64,000 nt of DNA from positions 558,001 through 622,000 of the forward strand of contig CANLXH010000002.1 of the NCBI GenBank assembly GCA_947495075.1, written 5' to 3'. Positions 22,461 through 27,369 of the stretch are shown in pieces; positions within the stretch are counted from its first letter, which is position 1, and each line of letters starts with the position of its first letter. The translations under genes were made by a program, and so were the position numbers. The notes beneath the pieces were generated by a model. The model was not told the DNA's origin. It saw nothing but the letters and a program-made list of their open reading frames with translations, and ran no database searches. Source of the DNA: an uncultured Croceitalea sp. (GTDB lineage Bacteria > Bacteroidota > Bacteroidia > Flavobacteriales > Flavobacteriaceae).

Positions 22461-23492
22461 TTACTTTTTAAACTTTAAAACATCTGAGCGACCTTTTTTA
22501 AAGATTTTATTACTCGCATGTTTCCCTTTTCTAAGCTTTTTTTGTTCTTCGTAAGGAAGCTCATGAACTTCTTTGCAAGCATCTGAACAGCAGTTATTCA
22601 TTAAAGTTGCACACTCCTTACATTGAATAAATAACAAATGGCAAGCTTCATTGGCACAATTTACATGCTCATCACATGGATTACCACATTGGTGGCAACT
22701 AGCAATCACATCATCAGAAATTCGTTCTCCACGTCTGTAGTCAAAAACAAAATTTTTTCCTAAAAATTTATTCTCTAAATTTTTCTCATTTACCTGTCTT
22801 GTATATTCTATTATACCACCTTCTAATTGAAAAACATTCCTAAAACCTTTATGCTTGTAATATGCACTTGCTTTTTCGCATCGTATTCCACCAGTGCAAT
22901 ACATGACCAGTTTTTTATCTTCTTTATGATCTGCTAAATCTTCTTCTATTATATCTAGAGAATCTCTAAATGTATCCACATCTGGAGTAATGGCATTTTT
23001 AAAATGTCCTATTTCACTTTCATAATGATTTCGCATATCAACTAATACCGTATCAGGGTCTTCAATCAATTCATTAAATCTTTCGGCATCAACATGAATT
23101 CCTTTATCAGTAACATCAAAAGTGTCATCATTAAGACCATCTGCCACAATTTTATGACGCACTTTTACTTTCAATTTTAAAAAGGATTTATTGTCTTGTT
23201 CTATAGCAATATTAATTCGCACATTTTGCAAAAAAGAAATACTGTCTAAATGTGCCTTAAAGTTTTCAAAATTTTCTGCAGGTACTGAAAGCTGAGCATT
23301 TATTCCTTCATTGGCAACATAAATGCGCCCTAAAACATCTAAGGCTTCCCAATTAATAAAAAGATGATTTCTAAAAATCTCTGTGTTCTTGATGTGTGCA
23401 TATCTATAGAAAGAGATAGTAAGCCGTTCTTTCCCGGCTTCCTCTATTAGTTTCTCCCTTTCTTTTGCACTTAAGGTATTGTACAGTTGCAT
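22461..23492 (-). CDS. trhO: tRNA uridine(34) hydroxylase TrhO (rhodanese-like)
   Basis: A 343-residue YceA/TrhO family protein. It has an N-terminal acylphosphatase-like domain (VANEGINAQLSVP), a rhodanese domain with the active-site Cys in VMYCTGGIRCEKA, and a C-terminal Cys-rich segment (CHQCGNPC, CANEAC, CKECATLMNNCC) that probably binds zinc. TrhO hydroxylates wobble uridine 34 in certain tRNAs, the first oxygen-dependent step to 5-methoxy- or 5-oxyacetyl-uridine. The gene is preceded by an unusual leader with a 13-codon ORF and a terminator hairpin (see those entries). It diverges from recA. Confidence 0.93.
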   Translation of the reverse strand: MQLYNTLSAKEREKLIEEAGKERLTISFYRYAHIKNTEIFRNHLFINWEALDVLGRIYVANEGINAQLSVPAENFENFKAHLDSISFLQNVRINIAIEQDNKSFLKLKVKVRHKIVADGLNDDTFDVTDKGIHVDAERFNELIEDPDTVLVDMRNHYESEIGHFKNAITPDVDTFRDSLDIIEEDLADHKEDKKLVMYCTGGIRCEKASAYYKHKGFRNVFQLEGGIIEYTRQVNEKNLENKFLGKNFVFDYRRGERISDDVIASCHQCGNPCDEHVNCANEACHLLFIQCKECATLMNNCCSDACKEVHELPYEEQKKLRKGKHASNKIFKKGRSDVLKFKK

Positions 23493-23545
23493 GCTATACT
23501 AATATTTTAAGTTTATAAAGTGATGCAAAAATAAGAATTAAATAA

Positions 23546-23576
23546 AAAGGCGCACCTCACTTTCGGGTGCGCCTTT
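23546..23576 (-). terminator. Intrinsic terminator or attenuator in the trhO leader
   Basis: GGCGCACC (23549-23556) pairs perfectly with GGTGCGCC (23566-23573), 9-base loop. On the minus strand it is followed by TTTTTATTT and precedes the trhO ATG by about 55 bases. As it lies between divergent genes, it must end a minus-strand transcript that begins upstream of trhO, so it is an attenuator or the end of a small RNA. Confidence 0.75.
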
Positions 23577-23598
23577 GACCACTAATATTCTTTTTCAT
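23557..23598 (-). CDS. Candidate 13-residue leader peptide
   Basis: ATG at 23598 opens the frame MKKNISGQRRTRK, and TGA (23559-23557) lies within the loop of the terminator hairpin. The 5' arm of the hairpin is read as the codons around Arg-Arg-Thr (AGG CGC ACC), so a translating or stalled ribosome would prevent the terminator from forming. It is too short to be judged by composition, and existence rests only on this arrangement. Confidence 0.4.
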   Translation of the reverse strand: MKKNISGQRRTRK

Positions 23599-23753
23599 AG
23601 ATAAAAATACGATACTGTGGTCTCAAAAATTTAGAGAAACTTATTGATAAATATTTGAATTAGTCATACTTAAGATGTAAACCGTTTAAAAAGGTTGCGT
23701 AGTCATTTTTAAATGCAAAAGAAATGGTATTTTAGTCATCTAATTTTTGAAAC

Positions 23754-24761
23754 ATGGCTAACGAGAACGAGGCAAAATTAAAAGCGTTAAAACTAACACT
23801 AGATAAACTTGATAAAACTTACGGAAAAGGAGCTGTAATGAAACTCGGAGATAGTGTAATTGAGGATGTAGAAGTTATATCTTCTGGCTCTCTAGGTTTA
23901 GATTTAGCATTGGGTGTTGGTGGGTATCCAAGAGGAAGGGTGATTGAAATTTATGGTCCAGAATCTTCAGGAAAAACAACCCTTACTTTACATGCGATTG
24001 CTGAAGCTCAAAAAAATGGAGGTATTGCAGCTTTCATTGATGCAGAACATGCTTTTGATCGTTTTTATGCCAAAAATTTAGGGGTTGATATTGATAATCT
24101 TATTATCTCCCAACCAGACCACGGTGAGCAAGCCTTAGAGATAACTGAAAACCTTATTCGCTCTGGCGCTATTGATATTGTTATAATTGATTCTGTTGCT
24201 GCACTAACACCAAAGAGTGAGATTGAAGGTGAGATGGGAGATTCAAAAATGGGACTTCATGCCAGACTAATGTCTCAGGCGTTAAGAAAACTTACTTCTA
24301 CCATTAGTAAAACACATTGTACCGTTATATTCATTAACCAATTACGAGAAAAGATTGGAGTTATGTTTGGTAATCCAGAAACTACGACTGGAGGAAATGC
24401 TTTAAAATTCTATGCTTCTGTAAGACTAGATATTAGACGTTCTACTCAAATTAAAAGTACAGATGGTGATGTTTTAGGGAATAAAACTCGTGTAAAAGTG
24501 GTAAAGAACAAAGTTGCACCTCCATTCAAAACAGTAGAATTCGATATTATGTATGGCGAGGGTATTTCTAAGGTCGGAGAAATTCTTGATTTAGGGGTAG
24601 CCTATGAAATAGTTAAGAAGAGTGGTTCTTGGTTTAGCTATGGTGACACTAAATTAGGTCAAGGGCGTGACGCTGTAAAAGCACTTTTAGAAGATAATCC
24701 AGAATTGTCTGAAGAACTTGAAGAAAAAATCAGGGAAGCTATTAAAACATTAAAAGAATAG
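23754..24761 (+). CDS. recA: Recombinase RecA
   Basis: A 335-residue RecA. The Walker A motif GPESSGKTT is near residue 69, the Walker B segment is [11 protein letters not shown], and loop 2 is in [31 protein letters not shown]. It forms filaments on single-stranded DNA and drives homologous recombination and the DNA-damage response. The length and the lack of an intein are normal. No LexA gene is visible nearby; Bacteroidota often lack a classical LexA. It is transcribed alone, divergent from trhO. Confidence 0.98.
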
Positions 24762-24834
24762 TTATTACTATAAAAGTCTTTTAGGACGCAACCTTTCTAG
24801 GCAAAACGCATCTTTAATTTTGAAATTGAAGCCT

Positions 24835-25254
24835 ATGAAAAAAGCATTTTTGATTTTTTATTGCGTTTCGTTATTATTTAGTTTTAATGGTTGTTCGCTA
24901 GATACTACCGAGGAAAACTTTCAATTTACCACTTTAGAGGTAGTAAGTGCAGACTTTCCAGAAGCATTTGATCACAATCAAATCTATGAGATTAATGTAG
25001 TTGTGCTAAGACCAGATACCTGTACTTTTTTTGAAGGTTTTGAGGTAACCGCGTCAAATATAACAACAAGAGAGATATCAGCCGTTGGGACTGTACTCAC
25101 TAACGAAACCTGCGCTCAAGCTATTGAAGAGGTTACTGCTACATTTAACTTTAGGGTGGATTATACTGATACCTATGTTTTTAGATTTTATACTGGAAAC
25201 GATGAGACTGGGAATGCGGTATTTCTTGAATATGAAGTTCCTGTAAACCAATAA
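24835..25254 (+). CDS. Small lipoprotein upstream of ECF sigma gene
   Basis: From the ATG at 24835 this is a 139-residue lipoprotein with a clear signal (MKKAFLIFYCVSLLFSFNG-C, Cys20). I reject the in-frame TTG at 24820. The mature part has two pairs of cysteines (PDTCTFFEG and NETCAQA) and is predicted beta-rich, possibly an Ig-like domain (YIEINVVVLRP-like strands, NFRVDYTDTYVFRFYTG). A TAATTTTG element at 24815-24822 fits the -7 consensus but lies only 12 bases before the ATG. It is followed by the ECF sigma gene after 40 bases and may belong to its module. I do not recognise the family. Confidence 0.75.
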   Translation: MKKAFLIFYCVSLLFSFNGCSLDTTEENFQFTTLEVVSADFPEAFDHNQIYEINVVVLRPDTCTFFEGFEVTASNITTREISAVGTVLTNETCAQAIEEVTATFNFRVDYTDTYVFRFYTGNDETGNAVFLEYEVPVNQ

Positions 25255-25294: not shown

Positions 25295-25828
25295 TTGAGT
25301 CTTGAAAAACTCATAGATAACTGCAAACAGGGCAATCGAAGGGCCCAAGAAGAACTCTACAGAAAATACTCGGGAGTGCTTTTTGGAATGTGCTTAAAGT
25401 ATTCGCGCAATAAAACTGAAGCAGAAGATAGTCTTCATGACAGTTTTATGACCATATATGACAAGATTGGCCAGTTTACAGGAAAAGGTTCTTTTGAGGG
25501 GTGGATGAAACGGATTACTGTAAATACAGTGTTGCAAAAATATCGTAAAGAGCAACATCTAAATGTAGTGTCTGAAAATATGGGTGATGAGATAGATATT
25601 GAAAGTGACAATACTAACAATATTAAACTCTCTACATTATTGGAGTATATTCAACAATTGCCGAATAAATATCGCCTCACATTTAACCTCTACGTACTTG
25701 ATGGCTATACTCATAAAGAAATTAGTGAGCTTTTGGGTACCTCAACAGGAACATCCAAATCAAACTTGGCTAGAGCTAAAATGATTTTAAAAGAAAAAAT
25801 TGAAAAAGAAAATATAAACATTGCTTAA
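25295..25828 (+). CDS. ECF RNA polymerase sigma factor
   Basis: A 177-residue ECF sigma factor with region 2 (EAEDSLHDSFMTIYDKIGQF, then FEGWMKRITVN) and region 4 (LPNKYRLTFNLYVLDGYTHKEISE followed by GTSTGTSKSNLARAK). The start appears to be TTG at 25295 (MSLEKLIDNCKQ), as the usual ECF N terminus begins right there and the nearest ATG would delete part of region 2. It precedes, by 11 bases, a protein whose layout suits a membrane-spanning anti-sigma factor, which probably keeps this sigma factor inactive until an envelope signal. Its regulon cannot be read from this window. Confidence 0.92.
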   Translation: MSLEKLIDNCKQGNRRAQEELYRKYSGVLFGMCLKYSRNKTEAEDSLHDSFMTIYDKIGQFTGKGSFEGWMKRITVNTVLQKYRKEQHLNVVSENMGDEIDIESDNTNNIKLSTLLEYIQQLPNKYRLTFNLYVLDGYTHKEISELLGTSTGTSKSNLARAKMILKEKIEKENINIA

Positions 25829-25839
25829 GCATTTTAAGA

Positions 25840-27369
25840 ATGGAAAAAAATAATTTAGAAAAACTATTTCATGAGAAGTTGAAAGACTTTCGTGAAATTC
25901 CAGGCGAGCATGTTTGGGAATCAATTTCGACCTCTTTGGATAAGAAGAAAAAGAAAAGAGTAATTCCTATATGGTGGAAACTAGGCGGCGTTGCGGCTTT
26001 ATTGGCTTTACTGTTTTATGTGGTAAATCCTTTTGAATCAACTATTCCTGTTAATCAAACCACAGATATAGAGAAAAATACTCCCCAGAAATCTAATGAA
26101 ACGATTGATATTCAAAAGCTTTCTAATGATTCTATTAACAAAATAGACAATAGTAATTCCATAGAGTTAGCTGATACGGAAAGTAATAAACAGGATAAGG
26201 AAAAAACTAAAGAAGTAGAACTGGTTAAAACTAAAAAAAATGTGCAAAGCCGAGTTGCTGTAGCTGATTCCAACACCAAAGGTTCTACGAATAATAAACT
26301 TAAAAATGATAAACAGAAAAATGCTATAAAAAATAAAGGAAGAGTTGCTGTAACAGAAAAAGGAAATCTGGAAGAAGAAAAGCTTAAAAAGAATACAGAT
26401 AAAATTGATTTTAATAAGACTATTGGAAAATCAGAAACCGGTGAAGTTGTATCTTCCAAAATAAATAAAGAAAAAGTCAGCGATAGTCAAAAACAGAACT
26501 TAGAAAAAGAGCTTTCTAACAAAGAAGATGCTGTAACAGTCGCAATCACAGAAAAAGAAGATGACAAAAAATCAGTTTTCGATGTAATTAAGGAAAAGAA
26601 AGAAGATGAAGAGAAGCTTGAAATAGCAGAAAATAGTAAAAATAAATGGTCAGTGGGACCATCTATTGCACCTGTCTATTTTGATGCTGTAGGGCAAGGC
26701 TCTCCTATACACTCAAATTTCGTAGAAAATTCTAAGTCTGGAAATATAAATTTAAGTTACGGTTTAACTGTTGCTTACGATTTAGGAAAACGTTTAAAAG
26801 TACGTTCTGGAATACATAAAGTAGATTACGGATACGATACTAATGAAATAGTGTTTTCTTCATCTATTGCAGCAAATAGTACTGGAACAATAGATAATAT
26901 TAATTTTTCTCAAACATCGAGAACAATCGTTGTTCAAAGTAAGAAAGCTAATACTAATGAATTAGCTAGTCCAAGCTCCAGTGATTTTTCTGCTCTAAGT
27001 CCACAAAGAGATGGTCGTATGTCTCAGCAAATTGGTTATTTGGAGATTCCGTTAGAATTAAATTATGCTTTGGTTGACAATAAACTTGGCGTAAATGTAA
27101 TTGGTGGTTTTAGTTCTTTATTTTTAGTTGAGAATTCCGTTTCTCTAGAATCTGAAGGGTTTGTAACAGAAGTTGGTGAGGCAAACAATATTAACTCCGT
27201 TAATTTTAGTGGTAATTTAGGTTTTGGTATTAATTACCAATTCTCTCCAAAAGTCCAAATTAATCTTGAACCAGTTTTTAAGTATCAATTAAATACTTTT
27301 TCACAAACAGCCGGAAATTTTAATCCTTATTCTATTGGTGTATACAGTGGGGTTCGATTTAATTTTTAA
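25840..27369 (+). CDS. Candidate dual-membrane-spanning anti-sigma factor with outer-membrane beta-barrel
   Basis: A 509-residue protein with four regions. Residues 1-40 are cytoplasmic and charged (FHEKLKDFREIPGEHVWESI), a plausible sigma-binding helix. Residues 42-62 are one inner-membrane helix (IPIWWKLGGVAALLALLFYV). Residues 63-268 are a Lys/Glu/Asn/Ser-rich, probably disordered periplasmic linker of about 200 residues that includes two RVAV segments. Residues 270-509 are amphipathic beta strands typical of a small outer-membrane barrel, ending in GVYSGVRFNF with a C-terminal Phe, the usual barrel-assembly signal. It follows an ECF sigma gene by 11 bases. This layout matches the Dma-type anti-sigma factors described in Bacteroides. 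The alternative is an ordinary barrel protein with an N-terminal anchor. Confidence 0.75.
   Translation: MEKNNLEKLFHEKLKDFREIPGEHVWESISTSLDKKKKKRVIPIWWKLGGVAALLALLFYVVNPFESTIPVNQTTDIEKNTPQKSNETIDIQKLSNDSINKIDNSNSIELADTESNKQDKEKTKEVELVKTKKNVQSRVAVADSNTKGSTNNKLKNDKQKNAIKNKGRVAVTEKGNLEEEKLKKNTDKIDFNKTIGKSETGEVVSSKINKEKVSDSQKQNLEKELSNKEDAVTVAITEKEDDKKSVFDVIKEKKEDEEKLEIAENSKNKWSVGPSIAPVYFDAVGQGSPIHSNFVENSKSGNINLSYGLTVAYDLGKRLKVRSGIHKVDYGYDTNEIVFSSSIAANSTGTIDNINFSQTSRTIVVQSKKANTNELASPSSSDFSALSPQRDGRMSQQIGYLEIPLELNYALVDNKLGVNVIGGFSSLFLVENSVSLESEGFVTEVGEANNINSVNFSGNLGFGINYQFSPKVQINLEPVFKYQLNTFSQTAGNFNPYSIGVYSGVRFNF

Follow-up and report, generated by a model that had tools for sequence, protein, structure and literature searches.

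Dual membrane-spanning anti-sigma factors (Dma) are a recent idea and have been studied in a few gut Bacteroides. They are described as one chain with four parts, namely an anti-sigma domain, a helix, a disordered tether and a barrel (PMC13088901), and work on mutants of Dma1, of Dma2 and of a comparable protein of P. vulgatus points to a restraining action of these proteins on their sigma factors (PMC13088901, PMC9308784). According to PMC13088901, mutants of Dma1 and Dma2 show more vesicles, the Dma1 effect going through NigD1, which is needed for the extra vesicles of the dma1 mutant; in the dma2 mutant das2 and its neighbours are strongly induced. For the P. vulgatus pair M0N98_03760/03761, loss of the anti-sigma factor is reported to activate the sigma factor and to lengthen the O-antigen, and exposure to a toxin, which induces the pair, raises three NigD orthologues as well (PMC9308784). 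Here we analysed a stretch of 64,000 nucleotides (nt) from an uncultured Croceitalea sp. of the Flavobacteriaceae (GCA_947495075.1, contig CANLXH010000002.1, positions 558,001 to 622,000), hereafter the window, in which the gene of an extracytoplasmic function (ECF) sigma factor is followed by a gene for a 509-residue protein. We suggest, with a probability of about 0.82, that this locus is a Dma-type envelope switch, in which an anchored chain holds a Das-like sigma factor and the freed sigma factor reads promoters of the form GCAACC-15-YATCT.

The initial annotation had placed an ECF sigma factor and a 509-residue chain at 25295..27369, and both open reading frames (ORFs) were confirmed there (Table 1). 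The C-terminal barrel with a final Phe was also recovered, since residues 293-482 match PF13568 (OMP_b-brl_2) with 31.7 bits, above the cut-off of 27, and the last residue is indeed Phe. A crude scan, made without a control, counted 14 amphipathic 9-mers in residues 264-509. Among 29 orthologues, 22 match PF13568 and 13 match PF13505 at E<=0.001, two counts that may overlap. The single inner-membrane helix is present, with boundaries that had to be corrected from 42-62 to 41-59 by hydropathy. The disordered linker of about 200 residues measures 204 (residues 60-263), and 75% of these are disorder-promoting letters; disorder was judged from composition and length alone. There were no matches to the protein in PHROGs, and a sequence search against solved structures returned six rows with nothing useful, the best of them (E 0.081) being a transmembrane peptide.

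Proteins of this kind are common in the family. A 29-row profile detected them in 253 of 299 family genomes at E<=1e-30, and the window protein used as a query matched in 49/60 family genomes at E<=0.001, the genome of the window itself holding one such protein at this threshold. After removal of duplicates, the 63 best-scoring loci left 49 distinct full-length orthologues, a set that is therefore biased to good matches and under-represents divergent members. All 49 have the membrane helix by hydropathy, a C-terminal Phe, a fit to the beta-signal pattern (in our own wording of it) and a higher net charge before the helix than after it, and none contains a cysteine. The tether is conserved in length (171-232 residues, median 204, standard deviation 13.5) and its sequence is barely above shuffled, with a median identity over 150 random pairs of 0.234 vs 0.21; the corresponding values are 0.525 for the N-terminal 40 residues and 0.468 for the barrel. 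Residues 243-250 stand out from the rest, the fraction of the top residue being 0.61 there vs 0.26 across the tether. Within the N-terminal region F10, W26 and L33 are invariant in the 29 rows, and the invariant pair W45-W46 comes next.

Such a product could also be an outer-membrane barrel of the usual kind that has a long extension at its N-terminus and does not act as an anti-sigma factor, the helix being a cleaved export signal. Barrel proteins are mostly made with cleaved signals, and the barrel domain found here is a common Pfam family. Nevertheless the first 40 residues, with their three invariant positions, are conserved no less than the barrel, they are homologous to the N-terminal region of Dma2, and a sigma-profile match lies just upstream in all the wider loci kept (see below). 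Because the N-terminal region is conserved, W45-W46 are invariant and the N-in charge bias is found in 49/49, a cleaved signal, which the initial annotation had itself named as the alternative, is disfavoured, and we regard an ordinary barrel as highly improbable.

The relation to Dma was evaluated outside the family. The 29-row profile had matches in 58 of 247 genomes of the phylum, many of them to the N-terminal part alone. Of 40 wider loci that were fetched 36 were kept; L106 was dropped, as were L087, L090 and L094, whose matched proteins are unlike this anti-sigma type. In 36/36 a sigma-profile match adjoins the N-terminal-domain match, just upstream of it. Dma2 was identified through the published order of the dma2 operon, starting from a search for DUF4943, which occurs in 3/119 genomes of the class and led to two loci with that order, in Bacteroides ihuae and B. 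pyogenes; B. thetaiotaomicron is absent from the loci found. In both, the order is sigma factor, barrel protein of 351-356 residues, DUF4943, DUF4858 and nitronate monooxygenase (NMO), and all five products were checked against Pfam in one of the two. A broad profile was made from 62 N-termini, with Dma2 excluded and with L080, L088, L092 and L102 left out for their extended or doubled N-termini. This profile, the comparison with Dma that the initial annotation had called for, matches both Dma2 N-termini with 35.3 and 30.6 bits, the best of 1000 shuffles reaching 7.8. One tryptophan is the sole invariant column among 21 wider rows that include the two Dma2. The proposal of a flavobacterial counterpart of the Bacteroides Dma is thus supported by the homology of the anti-sigma domain, the sigma clade described below and the topology, and judged by its sequence the 509-residue protein is a member of the Dma class.

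The same N-terminal domain was also observed in other contexts. Relatives outside the family of about 245-265 residues (L069, L070, L071, L075, L078, L079 and L093, among others) have the N-terminal domain and the helix with no match to the barrel profile, so this anti-sigma domain seems common to one-membrane and two-membrane factors. In L073 (2391-4703, plus strand) the anti-sigma N-terminus and helix come right after an ECF sigma gene and belong to a protein of 771 residues, in which they are joined to TonB-plug and VWA domains and to a sorting tail for type IX secretion (Pfam, run on L073 alone). Full-length matches of this type occur in 4/60 genomes of its family, its own included, and the relatives L236-L238 have a sigma-sized ORF upstream and, by eye, a similar C-terminus. 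An anti-sigma chain that ends in a secretion tail would be an alternative route to the cell surface. Another chain, L097 (436-3123, minus strand), carries CarboxypepD, Plug, vWF_A, VWA and YfbK_C domains; L239 and L240 (788-802 residues) share its N-terminus and lack a sorting-type ending, and each of the three has a sigma-type ORF upstream.

The sigma ORF matches PF04542 and PF08281, both over their cut-offs. In a tree of 72 factors, of which the bootstrap had not settled, 50 fall into one clade with support 100/99 and the other 22 lie outside. The clade is composed of 35/35 partners from the wider loci (L088 was left out of the tree), 10/10 partners of flavobacterial Dma (10 of the 30 flavobacterial sigma factors were entered), both Das2, and 3/25 other ECF factors of the window's own genome, a set without the window's own L036 and without L055, L057, L058 and L060. 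Adjoining a Dma gene and sharing one well-supported clade with Das2, the window sigma factor appears to be Das-like; Das2 is termed a putative ECF21 sigma factor in PMC13088901. In 13/147 distinct sigma/anti-sigma pairs (L003, L004, L007, L009, L151, L159, L161, L164, L165, L169, L172, L173 and L184) the sigma ORF ends in a hydrophobic tail some 15-17 residues long, and here third codon positions are the most variable and second positions the least. These sigma factors look as if they were tail-anchored in the membrane; the one in the window has no such tail.

A promoter of the form GCAACC-15 or 14-YATCT is found within 720 nt upstream of the sigma gene in 49/49 distinct pairs, with spacer 15 in 47 and spacer 14 in 2, and the spacer-15 form occurs in 0/980 shuffled upstream regions. 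The consensus for the operon is ACGCAACCTTT-N11-GCATCTA. The promoter precedes the lipoprotein gene that opens the operon, and it stays ahead of the sigma gene where the lipoprotein gene is missing. We scanned 60 family genomes with a strict pattern, CGCAACC-N-T-N13-YATCT, which gave 167 sites vs 4 for the reversed pattern. Strict sites are present in 48/49 genomes with Dma vs 0/11 without (Fisher 3.5e-11), and among the 150 sites listed, with those of the operon and the divergent ones excluded, the figures are 34/49 vs 0/11 (p 2e-5). Within the window a scan allowing one mismatch returned two matches, both exact, and 28/100 shuffles reach two, which is not significant; it is conservation and phyletic co-occurrence with the system that argue for the promoter.

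The anti-sigma pair could be real while the main reader of these promoters is a different ECF sigma factor from the same clade. The own genome does contain a paralogue, L031 (G000:C3:115696-115851, minus strand), with a same-clade sigma factor and a 251-residue anti-sigma factor that has the same N-terminal domain and no barrel, preceded by GCAACC-16-CGTCT; related motifs also stand at 16/36 wider sigma genes vs 2/1800 shuffles. However the spacer of the paralogue differs, the site of the operon itself is kept at spacer 15 or 14 in every distinct pair, and the Dma-less genomes have no strict site, so that we consider this explanation unlikely.

Motif SM6 of F. psychrophilum, which stands ahead of YceA, of a putative regulatory RNA and of one sigma/anti-sigma pair (PMC9723704), was considered as the same motif and set aside, being a lead at most, as it has a CGT box and identity is unproven. 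PMC7366714 states that a recognition sequence of EcfO has been published. In the literature searched as open-licence full text we found no flavobacterial Dma and no account of this promoter.

On the plus strand recA (23754-24761) is followed by the promoter, the lipoprotein, the sigma factor and the 509-residue protein, the last two separated by 11 nt from stop to start. Past the 509-residue gene come a convergent acyltransferase-like ORF and a tryptophanyl-tRNA-synthetase-like ORF; these two names and that of recA were assigned by eye, without a family search. In 30 family loci a sigma-type ORF stands immediately 5' of the Dma gene with gaps ranging between -4 and 76 nt, and many of these loci also agree with the window in their neighbouring genes.

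Table 1. Positions of the predicted features of the locus within the window
Feature	Position	Strand	Basis or remark
ECF-type promoter of the lipoprotein-sigma-Dma operon	24788..24813	+	GCAACCTTT...GCATCT, just past recA; exact match in window
Small lipoprotein, first gene of the operon	24835..25254	+	ORF; no Pfam domain in window copy
ECF sigma factor (Das-like), 177 residues, TTG start	25295..25828	+	Pfam and sigma tree
Dma-type anti-sigma factor candidate, 509 residues, ATG start	25840..27369	+	ORF, Pfam, orthologue profile
Residues 1-40, predicted cytoplasmic anti-sigma domain	25840..25959	+	F10, W26, L33 invariant in 29 rows; Dma2 homology
Residues 41-59, predicted inner-membrane helix, N-in	25960..26016	+	Hydropathy and charge
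Residues 60-263, low-complexity periplasmic tether of conserved length	26017..26628	+	Composition, length
Residues 243-250, most conserved part of the tether (K-K-S-I-x-D-x-I)	26566..26589	+	13 residues ahead of barrel
Residues 264-509, predicted outer-membrane beta-barrel, C-terminal beta-signal with final Phe	26629..27366	+	PF13568
Second promoter copy, divergent, beyond recA	23673..23698	-	Exact match in window
Predicted short transcript, about 125 nt, small-RNA-like, without long ORF	23544..23668	-	Hairpin and T-run
Rhodanese-type gene, presumably trhO/yceA	22461..23492	-	About 180 nt downstream of divergent promoter

The adjacent lipoprotein had been put forward as a possible third member, and it is a real ORF that shares operon and promoter with the sigma factor and Dma. 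A lipoprotein-like ORF lies upstream of the sigma gene in at least 42/49 distinct pairs, a lower bound because the detection rule missed at least L123; loci without the gene include L015, L023, L024, L029 and L030, among others. Besides the lipidated Cys the protein has two invariant Cys. At least two acidic residues are found at +3 to +6 in 23/24 rows, the exception being the CSLDTTE of the window. The lipid-attachment model LPAM_1 is the sole Pfam match among the relatives (5/24), and a sequence search against solved structures gave no PDB relative (0 rows).

The 150 listed sites out of the 167 strict ones comprise 38 of the operon itself, 27 divergent copies beyond recA, in 27 genomes, and 85 others. 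In the window the divergent copy faces a gene that we take to be trhO, a name given without a family search. In 9/10 fetched loci the trhO-like start is 208-464 nt past the divergent promoter, and in one it is not. A hairpin with a T-run precedes trhO in 12/12 distinct units by a lenient script run without a shuffled control, and the start and end of the short transcript were inferred by script, not mapped. An Rfam search of 23400-24900 gave three matches, all far below the gathering scores. This gene is called YceA in PMC9723704. In 7 of the 12 divergent units, all in the recA-trhO gap (L355, L356, L359, L360, L361, L265 and L290), we observed a peptide of 30 residues ending in DGG, six of them in CKADGG, of the form M(K/R)FF...N(S/A)(N/S)CK(A/S)DGG, with the same promoter and a predicted terminator after it. 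The codon differences in it (122 synonymous, 211 not) point only mildly to coding. Neither the window nor four other units have the peptide, and the divergent unit of the window looks like a small RNA.

For the study of targets 70 of the 85 other sites were taken, and at 53/70 an ORF of at least 80 residues starts within 70 nt. By a simple rule 33/53 of these are lipoprotein-like vs 9/156 background ORFs (p 1e-16), the background being drawn from the window and other own-genome loci, judged more leniently and counting the window's lipoprotein twice. Inspection by eye would move about six of the 20 rejected ORFs into the lipoprotein class and take about four of the 33 accepted ones out of it. 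At least two acidic residues at +2 to +6 are present in 25/33 target lipoproteins vs 0/9 background ones, and acidic residues at that position mark the lipoprotein export signal of Bacteroidota (PMC5080379). Five sites precede genes that by eye are rmlD-like. Ten other target proteins were scanned, and five have a Pfam match at E<=0.01, several of them to domains of unknown function.

We propose that a single helix would anchor the 509-residue chain in the inner membrane and the C-terminal barrel would anchor it in the outer membrane, with the tether of conserved length between them, and that the cytoplasmic domain of 40 residues would hold the Das-like sigma factor of the same operon in an inactive state. 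Disturbance or unfolding of the barrel, binding of a ligand to it, or its severance from the inner-membrane part would free the sigma factor, which would then act on the GCAACC-15-YATCT promoters, first on that of its own lipoprotein-sigma-Dma operon. As the operon bears this promoter, a positive feedback loop is strongly suggested, which would match the induction of das2 in the dma2 mutant (PMC13088901). Further output would be the short divergent transcript before trhO and, in the family as a whole, small surface-type lipoproteins and some sugar-nucleotide genes. Sequence shows the class, the topology, the operon and the promoter with its co-occurrence with the system; binding of the sigma factor, insertion into both membranes, the trigger and the direct control of each target are what we infer.

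Through the anatomy of the chain the outer membrane would be linked directly to the sigma factor, and release may be mechanical or by cleavage. Anti-sigma signalling by cleavage is familiar from the RseA pathway, and here too a periplasmic protease might cut the tether of a chain that spans both membranes, after which an intramembrane protease would free the sigma factor. Being long and unstructured, the tether would make a natural substrate for a protease, and residues 243-250 are conserved within an otherwise little-conserved segment; yet these residues are near the barrel and not near the inner membrane, and no protease gene was seen by eye beside the pair, genes elsewhere being left unexamined. 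We regard cleavage as a possible mode of release, although less likely than not.

Several observations weigh against the envelope switch as proposed. The narrow flavobacterial profile reaches just 13.8 and 11.3 bits against Dma2, the best of 600 shuffles being 8.5, and the broad profile is needed to make the match clear. PF13568 is recognised in just 22/29 orthologues at E<=0.001. The hydrophobic tails on the sigma factors of 13/147 pairs are unexplained by simple release. Genome G022 has Dma and no strict site, and 9/11 Dma-less genomes are of 2.6 Mb or less, so the co-occurrence may partly reflect lineage or size. In the own genome the exact pattern has 4 sites vs 2 for the control, and with up to 3 mismatches there are 7 sites vs 3 for the reversed pattern, for which reason only the pair of sites in the window, at 1 and 2 mismatches, is trusted there. 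Finally the ECF gene L049, which is outside the clade, has GTAACC-CGTC, and with the motif of L031 this means that some sites may belong to other sigma factors.

As to function, we tentatively suggest, giving it somewhat less than an even chance, that the pair is a Flavobacteriaceae-wide response for homeostasis of surface lipoproteins and the outer membrane. The barrel would sense the outer membrane, possibly via the co-encoded lipoprotein, and the sigma factor would induce lipoproteins with the export signal, varying between lineages, together with the small RNA or the 30-residue peptide of the recA-trhO gap. The proposed response could be the unnamed one that follows TamL loss in F. johnsoniae, where 13/16 affected surface lipoproteins are reported to rise in the outer membrane (PMC12045153), and could offer a candidate explanation for the lipoprotein surge on TamL depletion. 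Against this idea, the same source reports that in vesicles on TamL depletion 37/39 surface lipoproteins fell. The lipoprotein skew of the predicted targets would fit both the part that NigD1 plays in the Dma1 pathway and the rise of NigD orthologues in P. vulgatus (PMC9308784). These targets, mostly lipoproteins with acidic N-termini, suggest a purpose in common with the NigD protein of the Dma1 effect. The Dma design recurs in the majority of the genomes sampled from a large family of environmental bacteria. What is new is the promoter and the lipoprotein-rich target set, which are immediately testable, as a sharp promoter turns the question of what a Dma controls into a reporter assay.

The described systems differ in how closely they can be compared. 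Dma1/Das1 (Pardue et al. 2024, PNAS, via PMC13088901) was matched as a class by description alone, not by sequence, and M0N98_03761/03760 of P. vulgatus (PMC9308784) is likened by description, its anti-sigma factor being predicted to cross the periplasm and to end in a barrel. Dma2/Das2 is alike in the order of the parts, in the adjacent ECF sigma factor of the same clade and in the homologous anti-sigma domain. Both also have the promoter layout GCA(A/G)C-x-15-C(A/G)TCT, found upstream of dma2 in 31/34 named Bacteroides or Mediterranea loci vs 5/680 shuffles, a comparison made with other Bacteroides than B. thetaiotaomicron. However the flavobacterial protein has 509 residues and a tether of about 204, whereas Dma2 has 351-356 residues in all; its operon starts with a lipoprotein beside recA, whereas the dma2 operon ends in DUF4943-DUF4858-NMO; and its promoter is GCAACC/YATCT and not GCAGCA/CGTCT. 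Moreover it is widespread in its family, whereas the dma2 operon is said in PMC13088901 to be limited to B. theta and close relatives. The flavobacterial system is a widespread new lineage of a known class and not a new class.

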